DNA of 64,000 nt, from positions 2,976,001 through 3,040,000 of the forward strand of contig NZ_CP102950.1 in NCBI RefSeq assembly GCF_024741795.1. The letters are read 5' to 3'. Shown here in pieces: positions 33,820-38,598 of the stretch. Below the pieces are notes generated by a model. The model made no database searches. It saw nothing but the letters and a program-made list of their open reading frames with translations, and had not been told where the DNA came from. The first letter of the stretch is position 1, and each line of letters opens with the position of its first letter. Both the position numbers and the translations under genes were made by a program. The stretch comes from Arthrobacter sp. CJ23. Its GTDB lineage: Bacteria > Actinomycetota > Actinomycetes > Actinomycetales > Micrococcaceae.

Positions 33820-33973
33820 CCGGGGGCCTGCAAAAGCCGCGGAATCCTTGCTTCCGTGACACGCACGGCCGGCTCCCCGCCCACGCACAGGCAACGCACA
33901 GGAAAGCGCCCATCAACGCACAGAGTGAACCAGTACGCTGATTAGGACGTTATGAACACATAGGAGTGGCCTG

Positions 33974-34498
33974 ATGACGGCCATCCCAAACCCATCTTGT
34001 CCAGCTGAAACGAGCAGAACCATGACTACGCCACTTCGCAAGAGCATCTACGCCGGTATCGCAGGCCTGTCCCTGGTAGGCACCGTAGCCGGCTGCGCGC
34101 CATCGGCGCAGTCCACTCCCGCGCCGGCGGCCACCGGCCAGGCCAGCTCAACAGCTTCTTCCACCGCAACTTCCACCGGGTCCTCCACTGCGGCCACTGC
34201 GGCCGGCTACAAGGACGGCAGCTACAGCGCCGATGGCACGTACACCTCGCCGAACGGGCAGGAAACCGTGGGCGTGGAGCTCACACTCTCCGGCGGCACG
34301 GTGTCCGCCGTGAACATCACCGTCCACCCGTCCAACCCGAACACCAGGAAGTTCCAGACCGAGTTCAAGGACGGCATTGCGGCACAGATCGTGGGCAAGA
34401 AGCTCGATGATCTGAACGTTTCCAAGGTGGCTGGCTCCTCGCTGACCAGCGGCGGCTTCAAGCAGGCCGTGGAACAGATCAAGTCCCAAGCCAAGTAG
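33974..34498 (+). CDS. FMN-binding-domain lipoprotein (predicted flavinylated electron carrier)
   Basis: 174 residues from ATG 33974, which has TAGGAGT 8 nt upstream. The in-frame ATG at 34022 would give a cleaner signal peptide (MTTPLRKSIYAG) and is a real alternative. Lipobox VAGC puts the lipidated Cys at 41. A Ser/Thr/Ala-rich spacer (about 45-78) leads to an FMN_bind domain (79-170, YKDGSYSADGTY...). Near the end, VAGSSLTSGGF corresponds to the ApbE target motif; T158 is the likely FMN-linked residue. apbE follows after 5 bp. Inferred role: extracytoplasmic one-electron carrier fed by the membrane reductase two genes on. Confidence 0.9.
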   Translation: MTAIPNPSCPAETSRTMTTPLRKSIYAGIAGLSLVGTVAGCAPSAQSTPAPAATGQASSTASSTATSTGSSTAATAAGYKDGSYSADGTYTSPNGQETVGVELTLSGGTVSAVNITVHPSNPNTRKFQTEFKDGIAAQIVGKKLDDLNVSKVAGSSLTSGGFKQAVEQIKSQAK

Positions 34499-34503
34499 GG
34501 CCG

Positions 34504-35376
34504 ATGCCGCACCCGGGCTGGAGCGCTTTCCGTTTCGAAGGGATCGGGACCCGCTGGGAAATCTCGACGCCGGACCCGCTGGGTCCGGAGATCCGGCGCC
34601 GAGTGTTGGACACCGTGGAGGAATACGACCGGACGTATTCCCGGTTCCGGAACGATTCGATCGTGGCCGCACTGGGCCGGGAGCCCGGCAGCATCCGCCT
34701 GCCGGAGCACGCCGCAGCACTCCACTCGGTGTTCGCCACCCTGTACCGGCTCAGCGGCGGTGCCATGACCCCGCTGATCGGCAGCAGCCTGGAGCGCCTT
34801 GGCTACGGCCCGGACTACGCCCTGCAGCCGCAGGGGGACCCGGCCGCACCTCCGCGCTGGGAAGACGTCCTGGAATGGGACGGCCCCACCCTCACGGCTT
34901 CCGCGCCGCTTGTCCTGGACATCGGTGCGGCCGGCAAGGGACAGTTGGTGGACCTGCTGGCCGGGGTCCTCCGCGCCGCCGGGCTGGATGACTTCCTGGT
35001 GGACGGCAGCGGCGACATGCTGCATTCGGGATCGCGGCCCGTGACGGTGGCCCTGGAACACCCCTATGACCCCACCGAGGCGATCGGCACCGTGCTCCTG
35101 GACAACGCCGCCCTGTGCGCCTCCGCCGCCAACCGGCGGGCCTGGGGGGACGGGCTGCACCATGTCCTCGACGGGACCACGGGCCGGCCCATCCAGACGG
35201 TCGTGGCCACCTGGACCATGGCAGCCACAGCCCTCGAGGCCGATGCCCTGGCCACCGCCCTCTTCATGGTGGAGGCCTCCGCACTGGAGCGCGAGTTCAG
35301 TTTTTCCTGGCTCGCCGTATTTTCCGACGGCGGTGCACGGATTTCCTCCGCCTTTGAAGGGACACTGTTCTCATGA
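34504..35376 (+). CDS. apbE: FAD:protein FMN transferase ApbE
   Basis: 290 residues. ApbE landmarks: RFRNDSIV, LDIGAAGKGQLVD (138-150), LVDGSGDM, HHVLDGTTGRP (219-229) and ALEADALATALF (243-254). It attaches FMN from FAD to a Thr of secreted flavoproteins. There is no evident signal peptide or lipobox, so the export route or side of action is unclear. The adjacent lipoprotein upstream is the obvious substrate. Its stop overlaps the next start (ATGA). Confidence 0.93.
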   Translation: MPHPGWSAFRFEGIGTRWEISTPDPLGPEIRRRVLDTVEEYDRTYSRFRNDSIVAALGREPGSIRLPEHAAALHSVFATLYRLSGGAMTPLIGSSLERLGYGPDYALQPQGDPAAPPRWEDVLEWDGPTLTASAPLVLDIGAAGKGQLVDLLAGVLRAAGLDDFLVDGSGDMLHSGSRPVTVALEHPYDPTEAIGTVLLDNAALCASAANRRAWGDGLHHVLDGTTGRPIQTVVATWTMAATALEADALATALFMVEASALEREFSFSWLAVFSDGGARISSAFEGTLFS

Positions 35377-36878
35377 ACGCCTTGAAATCGCGTGTGGACA
35401 CCTGGCTGGGCCGCTTCACGATGTACCGCCTGATCCTCTGGGTCCTTGCAGTACTGATGGTCTTCAGCCTGGTGCTCAACGTGCTGGGCTGGCTGACCTT
35501 CGGCCTGCCGCAGATGCTGGTCCACCTGGGCCTGTGCCTGGGCCTGACGTACGGGTCCAACCGGCTGCTGGCACCGCTCTTCCGGGTCAAGCCGCACTCC
35601 GAGTCCTCCCTGATCACCGGCCTGCTGCTCTACTTCCTCTTCTGGCCGAGCTTCGCGGCCCTCGACATGGCCGGCGTTGCCCTTGCCTGCGTCCTGGCCA
35701 CCGTCTCCAAATACGCCTTGGCCTTCCGCGAACGGCACATCTTCAACCCGGCGGCCTGCGGCGCCTTCATCACCGGGCTGACCGGCCTGAACATCGCCAC
35801 CTGGTGGGCCGCGACCCCGGCCATGCTGTGGGCGGTGGTCCCGGGCGTCCTTCTGGTCCTGTACCGCACCCGGAAACTGCTCATGGCCTCGGTCTTCATG
35901 GTGGTGGCGACCAGCATCGTCTGCGTCGAGCTGCTGAACCACGGCTCGACGTTCGCCGAGTCATTGTGGCAGCCGCTCGCGCAGAGGCCGCTGCTGTTCT
36001 TCGTCGGCTTCATGCTCTCCGAGCCGCTCACCCTGCCGCCGCGCCGCTGGCAGCAGCTGGCGCTGGCCGCCGTCGTCGGTGTTGTTTTCGCGGTGCCCTA
36101 CAACCTGGGGTTCGTGGCCAATTCGCCGGAACTGGCGCTGCTTGCGGGAAACGCAATCGCCTTCCTGCTCGGCCAGCGCGGCGGGGTGCTGCTGGCCTTC
36201 AGGGGCACCCGGGCCCTGAGTCCGGGGAACACCGAGTTCCGCTTCGAACCCAAGCGCCCGGTGCGCTTCGCGCCGGGCCAGTTCATGGAACTGAACCTGC
36301 CGCATGGGGGCTCGGACGGGCGCGGCCGGCGCCGGGTCTTCAGCATCACGAGCGCGCCGGATTCACCGGAACTGACTTTCGGCGTCGGTACCGCGGAACC
36401 CGTATCCACGGCCAAGAAGGTCCTGCTTGCGCTGCAGCCCGGCGACGTTGTCCGCGGCACCGCGGTGGGCGGGGACTTCCTGTTGCCCCGCGACGCCGGC
36501 AGGCCGGTACTGCTGATCGCGGCCGGCATCGGGATCACGCCGTTCCTGTCCCAGCTTGCCGCCGGGGCCGGCCGCACCAGGGACACGGTGCTGCTCTACC
36601 TCGCCCCGAGCCGGGCCGAGCTTGCCGGACTCGAGGAGCTGGAGGCCTCGGGCGCCCGCGTGATCGCACGGCTGTCGGACGGTTCCACTCCCCCGGCGTT
36701 CATGCACGACGCCGGCAAGGAACGCATCGACGCCGGCTCCCTGAAGCGGCTGGTTCCGGATATTTCCACGCGGGACGTGTACGTTTCCGGGTCTCCGGCC
36801 AGCGTTGATTCGCTGCGGGCAGCCGCCCGGGGCGCGGGCGCCCGCAGGGTCCGGGTCGACTCTTTTGCCGGGTACTGA
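35373..36878 (+). CDS. NqrB/RnfD-like membrane domain fused to FAD/NAD(P) oxidoreductase
   Basis: 501 residues. Residues 15-280 form about 9-10 helices with the NqrB/RnfD hallmark HIFNPAACGAF (122-132) and the MLSEPLTLPP loop (214-223). The SGAT-type flavinylation site of true NqrB/RnfD is missing. Residues 283-501 are a ferredoxin-NADP reductase-type module: RVFSITSAP (321-329, FAD), AAGIGITPF (383-391, NAD(P)H), VYVSGSPASVD (469-479) and a C-terminal Tyr. Inference: cytosolic NAD(P)H electrons pass via FAD across the membrane to the flavinylated lipoprotein. The gene overlaps apbE by 4 bp. Confidence 0.92.
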   Translation: MNALKSRVDTWLGRFTMYRLILWVLAVLMVFSLVLNVLGWLTFGLPQMLVHLGLCLGLTYGSNRLLAPLFRVKPHSESSLITGLLLYFLFWPSFAALDMAGVALACVLATVSKYALAFRERHIFNPAACGAFITGLTGLNIATWWAATPAMLWAVVPGVLLVLYRTRKLLMASVFMVVATSIVCVELLNHGSTFAESLWQPLAQRPLLFFVGFMLSEPLTLPPRRWQQLALAAVVGVVFAVPYNLGFVANSPELALLAGNAIAFLLGQRGGVLLAFRGTRALSPGNTEFRFEPKRPVRFAPGQFMELNLPHGGSDGRGRRRVFSITSAPDSPELTFGVGTAEPVSTAKKVLLALQPGDVVRGTAVGGDFLLPRDAGRPVLLIAAGIGITPFLSQLAAGAGRTRDTVLLYLAPSRAELAGLEELEASGARVIARLSDGSTPPAFMHDAGKERIDAGSLKRLVPDISTRDVYVSGSPASVDSLRAAARGAGARRVRVDSFAGY

Positions 36879-36950: not shown

Positions 36951-37023
36951 GCCCTCGTAGCTCAGGGGATAGAGCGTCTGCCTCCGGAGCAGAAGGCCGT
37001 AGGTTCGAATCCTATCGAGGGCA
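36951..37023 (+). tRNA. tRNA-Arg (anticodon CCG)
   Basis: Full cloverleaf: acceptor GCCCTCG pairs with CGAGGGC, D-arm GCTC...GAGC, anticodon stem TCTGC/GCAGA around loop CTCCGGA (anticodon CCG at 36984-36986), and T-arm ATAGG/CCTAT type with GTTCGAATC. No CCA is encoded in the gene (ends GGGCACA). It reads the CGG codon, frequent in this high-GC genome. Confidence 0.97.
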
Positions 37024-37028
37024 CAAGC

Positions 37029-37063
37029 AACACCCCGCCAGCACAGCTGGCGGGGTGTTTTTT
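37029..37063 (+). terminator. Intrinsic terminator of tRNA-Arg
   Basis: 14-bp perfect stem (AACACCCCGCCAGC / GCTGGCGGGGTGTT) with a 3-nt loop, running into TTTTTT. It starts 6 nt after the tRNA. Confidence 0.93.
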
Positions 37064-37236: not shown

Positions 37237-38280
37237 GTGATCTGTTCCATCGTCCCGCCTTACATGCTGCGGAAGCTCGCAGCCCAGGATGAACCGCGAC
37301 TCCGGGCGGTTGCCCGCGCGGCCAAGGAATCCCTGCTTCATATCAGGAGCCTGCAGGCCGCACGCGCCCTTCCCGCGCCGGCCACTCCGCCCGGCATCCG
37401 GCAGGCCAAGCCCGGGCCGCCCAAACGGACCATCTACGACGCCGGCATGGCCGAGAGCCTGCCGGGGAAGCTCGTCCGCAAGGAAGGCGAGGCAGCCACC
37501 GGCGATGTGGGCGCGGACGAGGCCTACGAGGGCCTGGGGAGCACGCACCGGCTGTATGCCGAGGTCTTCGGGCGGAATTCGATCGACGGCGCCGGGCTTC
37601 CCCTGGACGCGACCGTGCATTTCGGCAAGCTCTACGACAATGCCTTCTGGGACGGCAAGCAGATGGTTTTCGGCGACGGAGACGGCCAGATCTTCCAGCG
37701 GTTCACCAAGTCCTTGAGCGTGATCGGCCACGAGCTCGCCCACGGTGTCACCCAGTACACGGCTGGCCTTGTCTACCGCAACCAGGCCGGCGCGCTGAAC
37801 GAGTCCATGTCCGATGTCTTCGGGGTGCTCGTGGAGCAGTTCCTCAAGCAGGAGTCCGTGGAGCAGGCAAGCTGGCTCATCGGCGAAGGCCTGTTCACCG
37901 AGCAGGTCCAGGGGGCCGCCCTGCGGTCGCTGAAGGCGCCGGGCACGGCGTATGACGACGACGTCCTGGGCAAGGATCCGCAGCCGGATTCCATGGACGG
38001 CTACGTCCGGACCAGCGCCGACAACGGGGGCGTGCACATCAACTCCGGCATCCCCAACCGCGCCTTCCATCTGGTGGCTTCCGCCCTTGGCGGCAACGCC
38101 TGGGAGGCGCCGGGGCAGATCTGGTACGGGACCCTCACGGGCGGCTCCCTGCCGGCCACGTGCACCTTCGGCCGCTTCGCGAAGGCGACGGCAAGCTCTG
38201 CCAAGGAGCTTTTCGGGGACGGTTCCGCAGAGCATGACGCCGTCCTGAAGGCGTGGGAGACTGTGAAGGTAAAGCTCTAG
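37237..38280 (+). CDS. M4 metallopeptidase, protealysin-like
   Basis: 347 residues. There is no signal peptide. A short N-terminal propeptide of about 50 residues begins with CSIVPPYMLRKLA, the PPYML-type motif of protealysins, instead of the long thermolysin prosequence. The zinc site is HELAH (165-169) with the third ligand E189 in GALNESMSDVF; a late His (in NGGVHINSG) completes the active site. Protealysins act inside the cell or are released without a classical signal. GTG start has AAGGGG 6 nt upstream. The next gene is its predicted inhibitor. Confidence 0.94.
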   Translation: MICSIVPPYMLRKLAAQDEPRLRAVARAAKESLLHIRSLQAARALPAPATPPGIRQAKPGPPKRTIYDAGMAESLPGKLVRKEGEAATGDVGADEAYEGLGSTHRLYAEVFGRNSIDGAGLPLDATVHFGKLYDNAFWDGKQMVFGDGDGQIFQRFTKSLSVIGHELAHGVTQYTAGLVYRNQAGALNESMSDVFGVLVEQFLKQESVEQASWLIGEGLFTEQVQGAALRSLKAPGTAYDDDVLGKDPQPDSMDGYVRTSADNGGVHINSGIPNRAFHLVASALGGNAWEAPGQIWYGTLTGGSLPATCTFGRFAKATASSAKELFGDGSAEHDAVLKAWETVKVKL

Positions 38281-38313
38281 CAGCAGGAACAGCGCATCAC
38301 GGAAGCCGTCACC

Positions 38314-38598
38314 ATGAAGATCACGGTCAGACGCAGCGGCGGGATTGCCGCCCTCACACGGATCTGGACGGTCGAGGCCGTCACTACCGACGACAAACGC
38401 CGGTGGATGCCGATCGTGGACGCGTGCCCCTGGGACAATGCCGATGCCCGGGCGGCCACCAACGAACCCGACCGGTTCATGTACGCCATCCGGGCCGGGC
38501 AGCGGCGCGCGACGCTGCCCGAAAAGGCAGTCACGGGACCCTGGCAGGTCCTCGTGGAGAACGCGAAGACCGAGGGCCAGGAGTCGCTGCGCCGCTAG
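38314..38598 (+). CDS. Emfourin-like protealysin inhibitor
   Basis: 94 residues, no signal peptide. MKITVRRSGGIAALTRIWTV at the start and a central DACPWDN segment match the small cytosolic inhibitors (emfourin, first described beside Serratia protealysin) that bind M4 protealysin-like enzymes. GGAAG lies about 8 nt before the ATG. Placement 33 bp behind the protease gene supports the pairing. The last codon and the convergent glxA-like gene share CTAG, giving TAG stops on both strands. Confidence 0.85.
   Translation: MKITVRRSGGIAALTRIWTVEAVTTDDKRRWMPIVDACPWDNADARAATNEPDRFMYAIRAGQRRATLPEKAVTGPWQVLVENAKTEGQESLRR

Follow-up and report, generated by a model that had tools for sequence, protein, structure and literature searches.

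An NQR/RNF-like flavinylated electron-export module is the probable product of three genes beside argS in Arthrobacter sp. CJ23

The stretch of 64,000 nucleotides from Arthrobacter sp. CJ23 that was analysed here (the window) carries a gene for an FAD:protein FMN transferase (ApbE) without a visible signal peptide, adjacent to the gene for an exported lipoprotein that is its putative substrate. This poses a clean question: where is the FMN attached, given that the carrier is exported? The locus consists of three genes on the + strand, located between the divergent argS gene and tRNA-Arg(ccg), which encode the lipoprotein, ApbE and a fusion protein of 501 amino acids. A sequence-only reading of this DNA had described these genes and their order as FMN-carrier lipoprotein, ApbE and NqrB/RnfD-reductase fusion, which the sequence confirms. 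The features are the following, with positions in the window:

33996..34021, + strand: conserved leader immediately 5' of the lipoprotein ATG, marking the likely true start (genus comparison)
34022..34498, + strand: FMN-carrier lipoprotein, 158 aa, NqrC/RnfG counterpart
34022..34096, + strand: lipoprotein signal peptide with lipobox VAGC, Cys25 at 34094-34096 (read from the sequence)
34445..34447, + strand: Thr142 codon, predicted FMN attachment site, motif AGSSLTS (conservation)
34504..35376, + strand: ApbE, FAD:protein FMN transferase, 290 aa, without visible signal peptide (PF02424, E 6.6e-36)
35373..36878, + strand: NqrB/RnfD-like membrane domain fused to an FAD/NAD(P) reductase, 501 aa
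35742..35756, + strand: FNPAA motif of the NqrB/RnfD-like domain (N125, P126 and A128 invariant in 23 homologues)
36021..36041, + strand: EPLTLPP motif, counterpart of RsxD TDPVT (E217, P218, T220 and P222 invariant in 23 homologues)
36174..36875, + strand: FAD/NAD(P)-binding reductase domain of the NqrF/flavohaemoglobin-reductase type

Gene identities and order, motif conservation, the missing RnfD-site stretch and the missing visible ApbE signal were read from the sequence. We propose, with a probability of about 0.85, that the three genes encode an NQR/RNF-like flavinylated electron-export module. ApbE would take FMN from FAD and attach it to Thr142 of the lipoprotein. In the cytosolic reductase domain of the fusion NAD(P)H would reduce FAD, and the NqrB/RnfD-like domain would carry the electrons across the membrane by means of a non-covalent flavin. 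The FMN of the lipid-anchored carrier outside would receive these electrons and hand them to an acceptor. Flow would be one-way, the cluster being without the electron-return and ion-pumping parts of true NQR/RNF. In this scheme flavinylation, electron transfer and the cell location of the parts are predictions from sequence, with homology suggesting FMN attachment, flow direction and the non-covalent flavin.

The papers and the review cited here were available in part, and statements on them refer to those parts. Meheust 2021 (PMC8238504) described the NQR/RNF-like system as 127 clusters in 127 genomes, mainly of Actinobacteria and CPR, in which electrons likely flow one way, with NAD(P)H as the donor and the FMN carrier as the recipient. 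Huang 2024 (PMC10979944) modelled the complex of Ktedonobacter racemifer, in which the NqrB/RnfD Thr is not conserved, and suggested that the membrane protein has a non-covalent site which the carrier flavin visits. The path given by the sequence-only reading, from NAD(P)H over the reductase and the NqrB-like domain to the flavinylated lipoprotein, matches the proposals of both papers; literature searches of such partial sources yielded no experiment on this cluster. Judged by the defining features tested here, the module belongs to this already described system. Like it, the module combines an NqrC/RnfG-like carrier, an NqrB/RnfD-NAD-binding fusion and apbE in one cluster, the covalent Thr of NqrB is not conserved, and Actinobacteria are among the main hosts. 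Meheust 2021 looked for genes at most five genes away from ApbE or FMN_bind, with at least one target bearing a signal or lipidation site; here the genes are adjacent and the carrier has a lipobox. The module differs in having the motif AGSSLTS instead of SGATxTS and in the proximity of argS throughout the family, and its ApbE is signal-less, a property that the available parts of Meheust 2021 and Huang 2024 do not mention. Added here to the description of the system are the signal-less ApbE in all clusters read (49/49), the argS proximity (17/17) and the complementarity with MsrQ-type ApbE.

Covalent FMN is predicted on Thr142 of the lipoprotein. The target Thr is present in 30/30 genus loci (the best 30 of 142 matching genomes, that is 29 relatives and the window), in 21/21 sequences of a further carrier alignment and in 17 of the 18 distant carriers found by profile, with Ser in L059; the canonical SGATxTS occurs in the distant carrier L066. 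The sequence-only reading had proposed a Thr conserved at this motif as a test, and the Thr is indeed kept in the genus and, with the one Ser, in the distant set. Signal peptides and lipoboxes were judged by reading the sequence, and the lipobox Cys25 is invariant among the carriers compared. The FMN_bind domain was matched in 21/21 carriers at E ≤ 0.1, the window lipoprotein and the fusion both falling below the Pfam cut-offs. By fold the carrier is matched modestly, and the scores of unrelated folds come close: Foldseek with the carrier model ranked a lipoyltransferase first and FMN domains at 3 to 7, none below E 0.001. Searching PDB sequences with the lipoprotein profile brought up no related chain, and profile comparison of the lipoprotein with RsxG gave nothing usable. 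Genome-wide, the only FMN_bind match at E ≤ 10 is the lipoprotein, and the only PF02424 (ApbE) match at E ≤ 1 also lies inside the cluster.

The FNPAA motif of the fusion aligns with FNPA of E. coli RsxD, and the C-terminal NAD-binding domain (PF00175) is homologous to NqrF. Membership in PF03116 is visible through relatives (16 of 31 close ones at E ≤ 0.1 and 5 of 23 diverse ones at E ≤ 0.01), the window fusion itself giving no PF03116 match at E ≤ 10. A fusion profile matched RsxD 229-334 with E 9.2e-4; the placement on RsxD is weak (hhalign probabilities 4.9 and 22.6), and profile comparison from a shallow alignment covered 53 columns only. Two profile alignments agree in setting about 100 RsxD residues (129-228) against about 25 fusion residues, and RsxD 184-187 (SQAT) stands opposite a gap. 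By these alignments the stretch that holds the covalent-flavin site of RnfD is missing from the fusion and the flavinylation Thr of NqrB/RnfD is not conserved. The pattern [STD]G[AS][TS], which would miss RsxD SQAT too, matched none of the 23 homologues in their membrane halves; the looser [STD].[AS]T matched 8/23 there, at scattered places, and is absent from the window fusion. The structural model of the fusion is weak in its membrane half (block pLDDT 46-57, residues 111-170), and the structure comparison listed no NqrB/RnfD chain, its rows being filled by reductase-domain matches. The sequence-only reading had claimed that the NqrB-like domain lacks its own flavin site, which agrees with the gap facing SQAT and with the loss reported in Huang 2024 (PMC10979944). 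Its suggestion that electrons skip the covalent flavins of NQR/RNF is possible for the NqrB/RnfD flavin only and does not extend to the carrier flavin, because the lipoprotein is the NqrC/RnfG counterpart.

Similarities to other flavin-based systems are partial. The module shares with Na+-NQR and RNF the motifs FNPA and (T/S)(D/E)P(V/L)T, an NqrF-type reductase and an NqrC/RnfG-type carrier, but possesses two redox proteins only and no counterpart of the RsxD SQAT stretch. The three-gene cluster thus holds neither the full Na+-NQR/RNF subunit set nor the NqrB/RnfD covalent flavin site, and no further NQR/RNF subunit genes were recognised in the cluster and its scanned neighbours. An FMN_bind carrier, an ApbE without visible signal and a membrane protein with a C-terminal NAD-binding domain are also found in the MsrQ-like system, whose membrane part, however, is ferric-reductase-like (PF01794), with two haem sites predicted (Meheust 2021, PMC8238504), whereas that of the module is NqrB/RnfD-like. 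Listeria FmnB/PplA likewise consists of an exported carrier flavinylated by an ApbE relative, but FmnB works outside the cell and depends on an ECF-type transporter for the export of FAD; no gene for an ECF-type FAD exporter was recognised in the module's cluster.

The order lipoprotein-apbE-fusion is kept in 30/30 genus loci (best 30 of 142) and is contiguous and identical in 17 of the 20 distant loci, a set of 17 from the same family and one each from the order, class and phylum. The linkage of the three genes, a second test named in the sequence-only reading, is thereby borne out. In L065 the lipoprotein gene lies about 2.6 kb above apbE, L066 has the order fusion-apbE-carrier, and in L051 (genome G470, same family) the fusion is near argS with neither lipoprotein nor apbE beside it. 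The sole FMN_bind match of G470 adjoins another ApbE on contig C78, so sharing of a carrier is possible. In 17/17 same-family loci argS is found at most about 3 kb from the module, not always adjacent (in L050 an MFS transporter gene, L050:4228-5451, lies between them); since argS stays near through the family, this points to inheritance of the module at one chromosomal place. The nameable recurrent neighbours in the 20 distant loci are argS, lysA, hom, thrC, an MFS transporter (7/20), a HIT-family protein (8/20, for example L049:823-1251) and a WYL regulator. According to a family scan of the window, the argS side carries a GHMP kinase, a PALP enzyme, homoserine dehydrogenase, a LysA-type decarboxylase and argS, and the tRNA side tRNA-Arg, an M4 peptidase, emfourin and GlxA-type and WYL-type regulators. 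tRNA-Arg(ccg) starts 72 bp past the fusion (36951-37059 region), with a strong terminator-like hairpin downstream of it at 37029-37059, and may be cotranscribed with the module. The gene for the M4 (thermolysin-type) peptidase spans 37237-38598 (347 aa, catalytic match from residue 75) and is followed by the emfourin gene.

The closest named relatives of the module are from Paenarthrobacter and Arthrobacter. Fusion matches were obtained in 142/150 genus genomes at E ≤ 1e-10, 136 of them strong (E ≤ 1.7e-120, some split across frames), in 49/197 genomes and 9/32 genera of the family sample, and in 5/296 genomes and 4/198 genera of the phylum sample. Being near-universal in the sampled genus and stable in chromosomal place, the module offers a test host for a system known from genomes and models. 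Fusion remnants were seen in G009 and G056 (residues 420-501 or 401-492 only) and split copies in G030, G053, G085, G107, G131, G133 and G140; these represent either decay or sequencing frameshifts.

A strong fusion match is absent in 14/150 genus genomes. Another ApbE is present in 13/13 of those checked, the fourteenth (G027, 68% complete) having been left out. In L108 and L110, which were scanned with Pfam, the gene for this ApbE belongs to an MsrQ-like cluster, its neighbours being the genes for a ferric-reductase-like/NAD-binding fusion and an FMN_bind protein; the MsrQ-type ApbE is without a visible signal peptide in 9/9 loci and was matched in 101/150 genus genomes. Among the 150 genomes, 88 contain both, 48 the fusion only, 13 the MsrQ-type ApbE only and one (G027) neither (one-sided Fisher p 0.025). 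For the 141 good-quality genomes the numbers are 84, 44, 13 and 0 (p 0.0059); both p values ignore phylogenetic relatedness. In this count split fusions and partial ApbE matches are taken as present and the ApbE stands in for the MsrQ cluster; G030 (92% complete, 6% contaminated, outside the good-quality set) becomes a second genome with neither if its split fusion is scored as lacking. The distribution suggests that the NQR/RNF-like and MsrQ-type reductases are partly interchangeable. A further type of ApbE, with open frames of 416-441 aa (L069-L073, L118, L119), occurs in the fusion-lacking genomes G003, G009, G056, G071 and G081.

The acceptor is not nameable from genomic context, the neighbours assigned to families being amino-acid genes, argS, tRNA, peptidase with emfourin, and regulators. 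It is plausible, if at somewhat less than even odds, that the carrier delivers its electrons to an envelope enzyme, to the quinone pool or to oxygen, not to iron. A general redox role fits the strong matches in 136/150 genus genomes and the presence pattern complementary to MsrQ-type ApbE, and a Streptomyces three-FMN protein can use dioxygen (review PMC12052999), but none of the recurrent neighbours given a family could be recognised as a partner enzyme. A cell-surface reductase of iron (or another metal) that feeds iron uptake appears doubtful: a VIT1 iron transporter occurs in 6/127 NQR/RNF-like and 153/1797 MsrQ-like clusters (Meheust 2021, PMC8238504), yet there is no metal transporter among the scanned neighbours of the module, and the nameable recurrent neighbours of the 20 distant loci are those given above, from argS to the WYL regulator.

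ApbE matches FMN transferases in the PDB (E 1.5e-13), and its transferase motifs HHVLDGTTGRPI and EADALATA align with solved FMN transferases. The identity assigned by the sequence-only reading stands; its account had passed over the missing visible signal peptide. In the 30 genus loci (best 30 of 142) a conserved F[ED]GIGT strand begins around residue 11, too early to leave room for a signal peptide, and neither a hydrophobic stretch nor a lipobox precedes it; extra in-frame starts lie upstream in L010, L018 and L025, the start of their relatives being the near one. The 18 distant ApbEs and that of L066 are also without a signal-like stretch, the strand lying about 4 to 25 residues from the start where this is clear; in L049, L056, L062 and L065 the start is ambiguous and the frame runs on upstream, with no signal-like run in the 44 residues before the domain. 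Altogether, a signal peptide or lipobox is visible in 0/49 clusters with the N-terminus read (30 genus, 18 distant and L066). In E. coli ApbE the MGT strand comes after a lipoprotein signal and about 20 more residues. A hydrophobicity index reaches at most 1.41 in genus ApbE and 1.53 in distant ApbE, and is 1.62-1.95 in the lipoproteins and 1.99 in E. coli ApbE; because this separation is not clean, the claim depends on reading of the N-termini. Among 30 phylum-wide ApbE loci (L078-L107), many of whose matches began inside the domain so that those N-termini were left unread, a strongly hydrophobic stretch (2.57-2.99) precedes the matched region in L080, L084, L086 and L100; the signal-less form is therefore not a rule of the phylum.

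As a tentative answer to the question of attachment, we suggest that an ApbE which stays in the cytosol and draws on the FAD there could load FMN onto the precursor lipoprotein before export, both here and in the MsrQ-type clusters of the genus. The already flavinylated lipoprotein would probably be exported by Sec rather than by the twin-arginine route, since the twin-Arg is not conserved. With attachment before export no FAD exporter would be needed, and the export machinery would pass a covalently flavinylated chain. Twin-arginine export of a pre-folded flavinylated carrier was rejected as a general rule: an RR pair was flagged in the n-region of only 5 of 18 distant lipoproteins, a script-made count in which the wrong Cys was picked for L049, which by eye has no such pair, and the window lipoprotein has RK, not RR. 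Clusters in Meheust 2021 (PMC8238504) were accepted with at least one target gene bearing a signal, so a signal-less ApbE with an exported carrier could be counted without being singled out. No discussion of this pairing was found in the available parts of Meheust 2021, Huang 2024 and PMC12052999, nor did literature searches, mostly at title and abstract level, give a paper plainly about it.

It is rather unlikely that ApbE is exported by a non-classical route and flavinylates the carrier outside, as in well-studied bacteria. Most characterised ApbEs are indeed exported lipoproteins, and in an early study exported ApbE was not replaceable by a cytosolic form (review PMC12052999). Against this stand the absence of a signal-like stretch in 49/49 ApbEs, the genus strand too near the start, and the existence of cytosolic ApbEs, including one of Klebsiella with a cytosolic target (PMC12052999). 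That ApbE modifies some cytosolic protein, with the lipoprotein unflavinylated or binding flavin non-covalently, would agree with the missing visible signal and with the Ser in place of Thr in L059, but is very improbable, as the genome's sole FMN_bind match (E ≤ 10) is the adjoining lipoprotein, the lipoprotein-apbE gap is 4-6 bp with constant order in the genus loci (best 30 of 142), and ApbEs can flavinylate Ser too, as they do in certain flavodoxins and FMN reductases (Huang 2024, PMC10979944).

The lipoprotein most likely starts at 34022 and not at 33974, the start given in the sequence-only reading. The frame is open from 33974, where AGGAG precedes an ATG, and an extended form is possible in this strain; the later start is favoured because the 18-nt core of the conserved leader abuts the 34022 ATG and the upstream frame varies among genus loci in length (4 to 67 codons) and sequence. 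The core is kept in 28/30 genus loci (best 30 of 142), with L028 and L029 diverging, and a longer version of the leader in 22/30 of them. The leader was rejected as a regulon site, a 22-nt pattern of it having a single genomic match when up to 3 mismatches are allowed. Further upstream, a block at 33925-33960 with the consensus CTGAACCATTACGCTGA...ACGTTATGAA, in a promoter-like position, is largely common to 10 aligned lipoprotein upstream regions.
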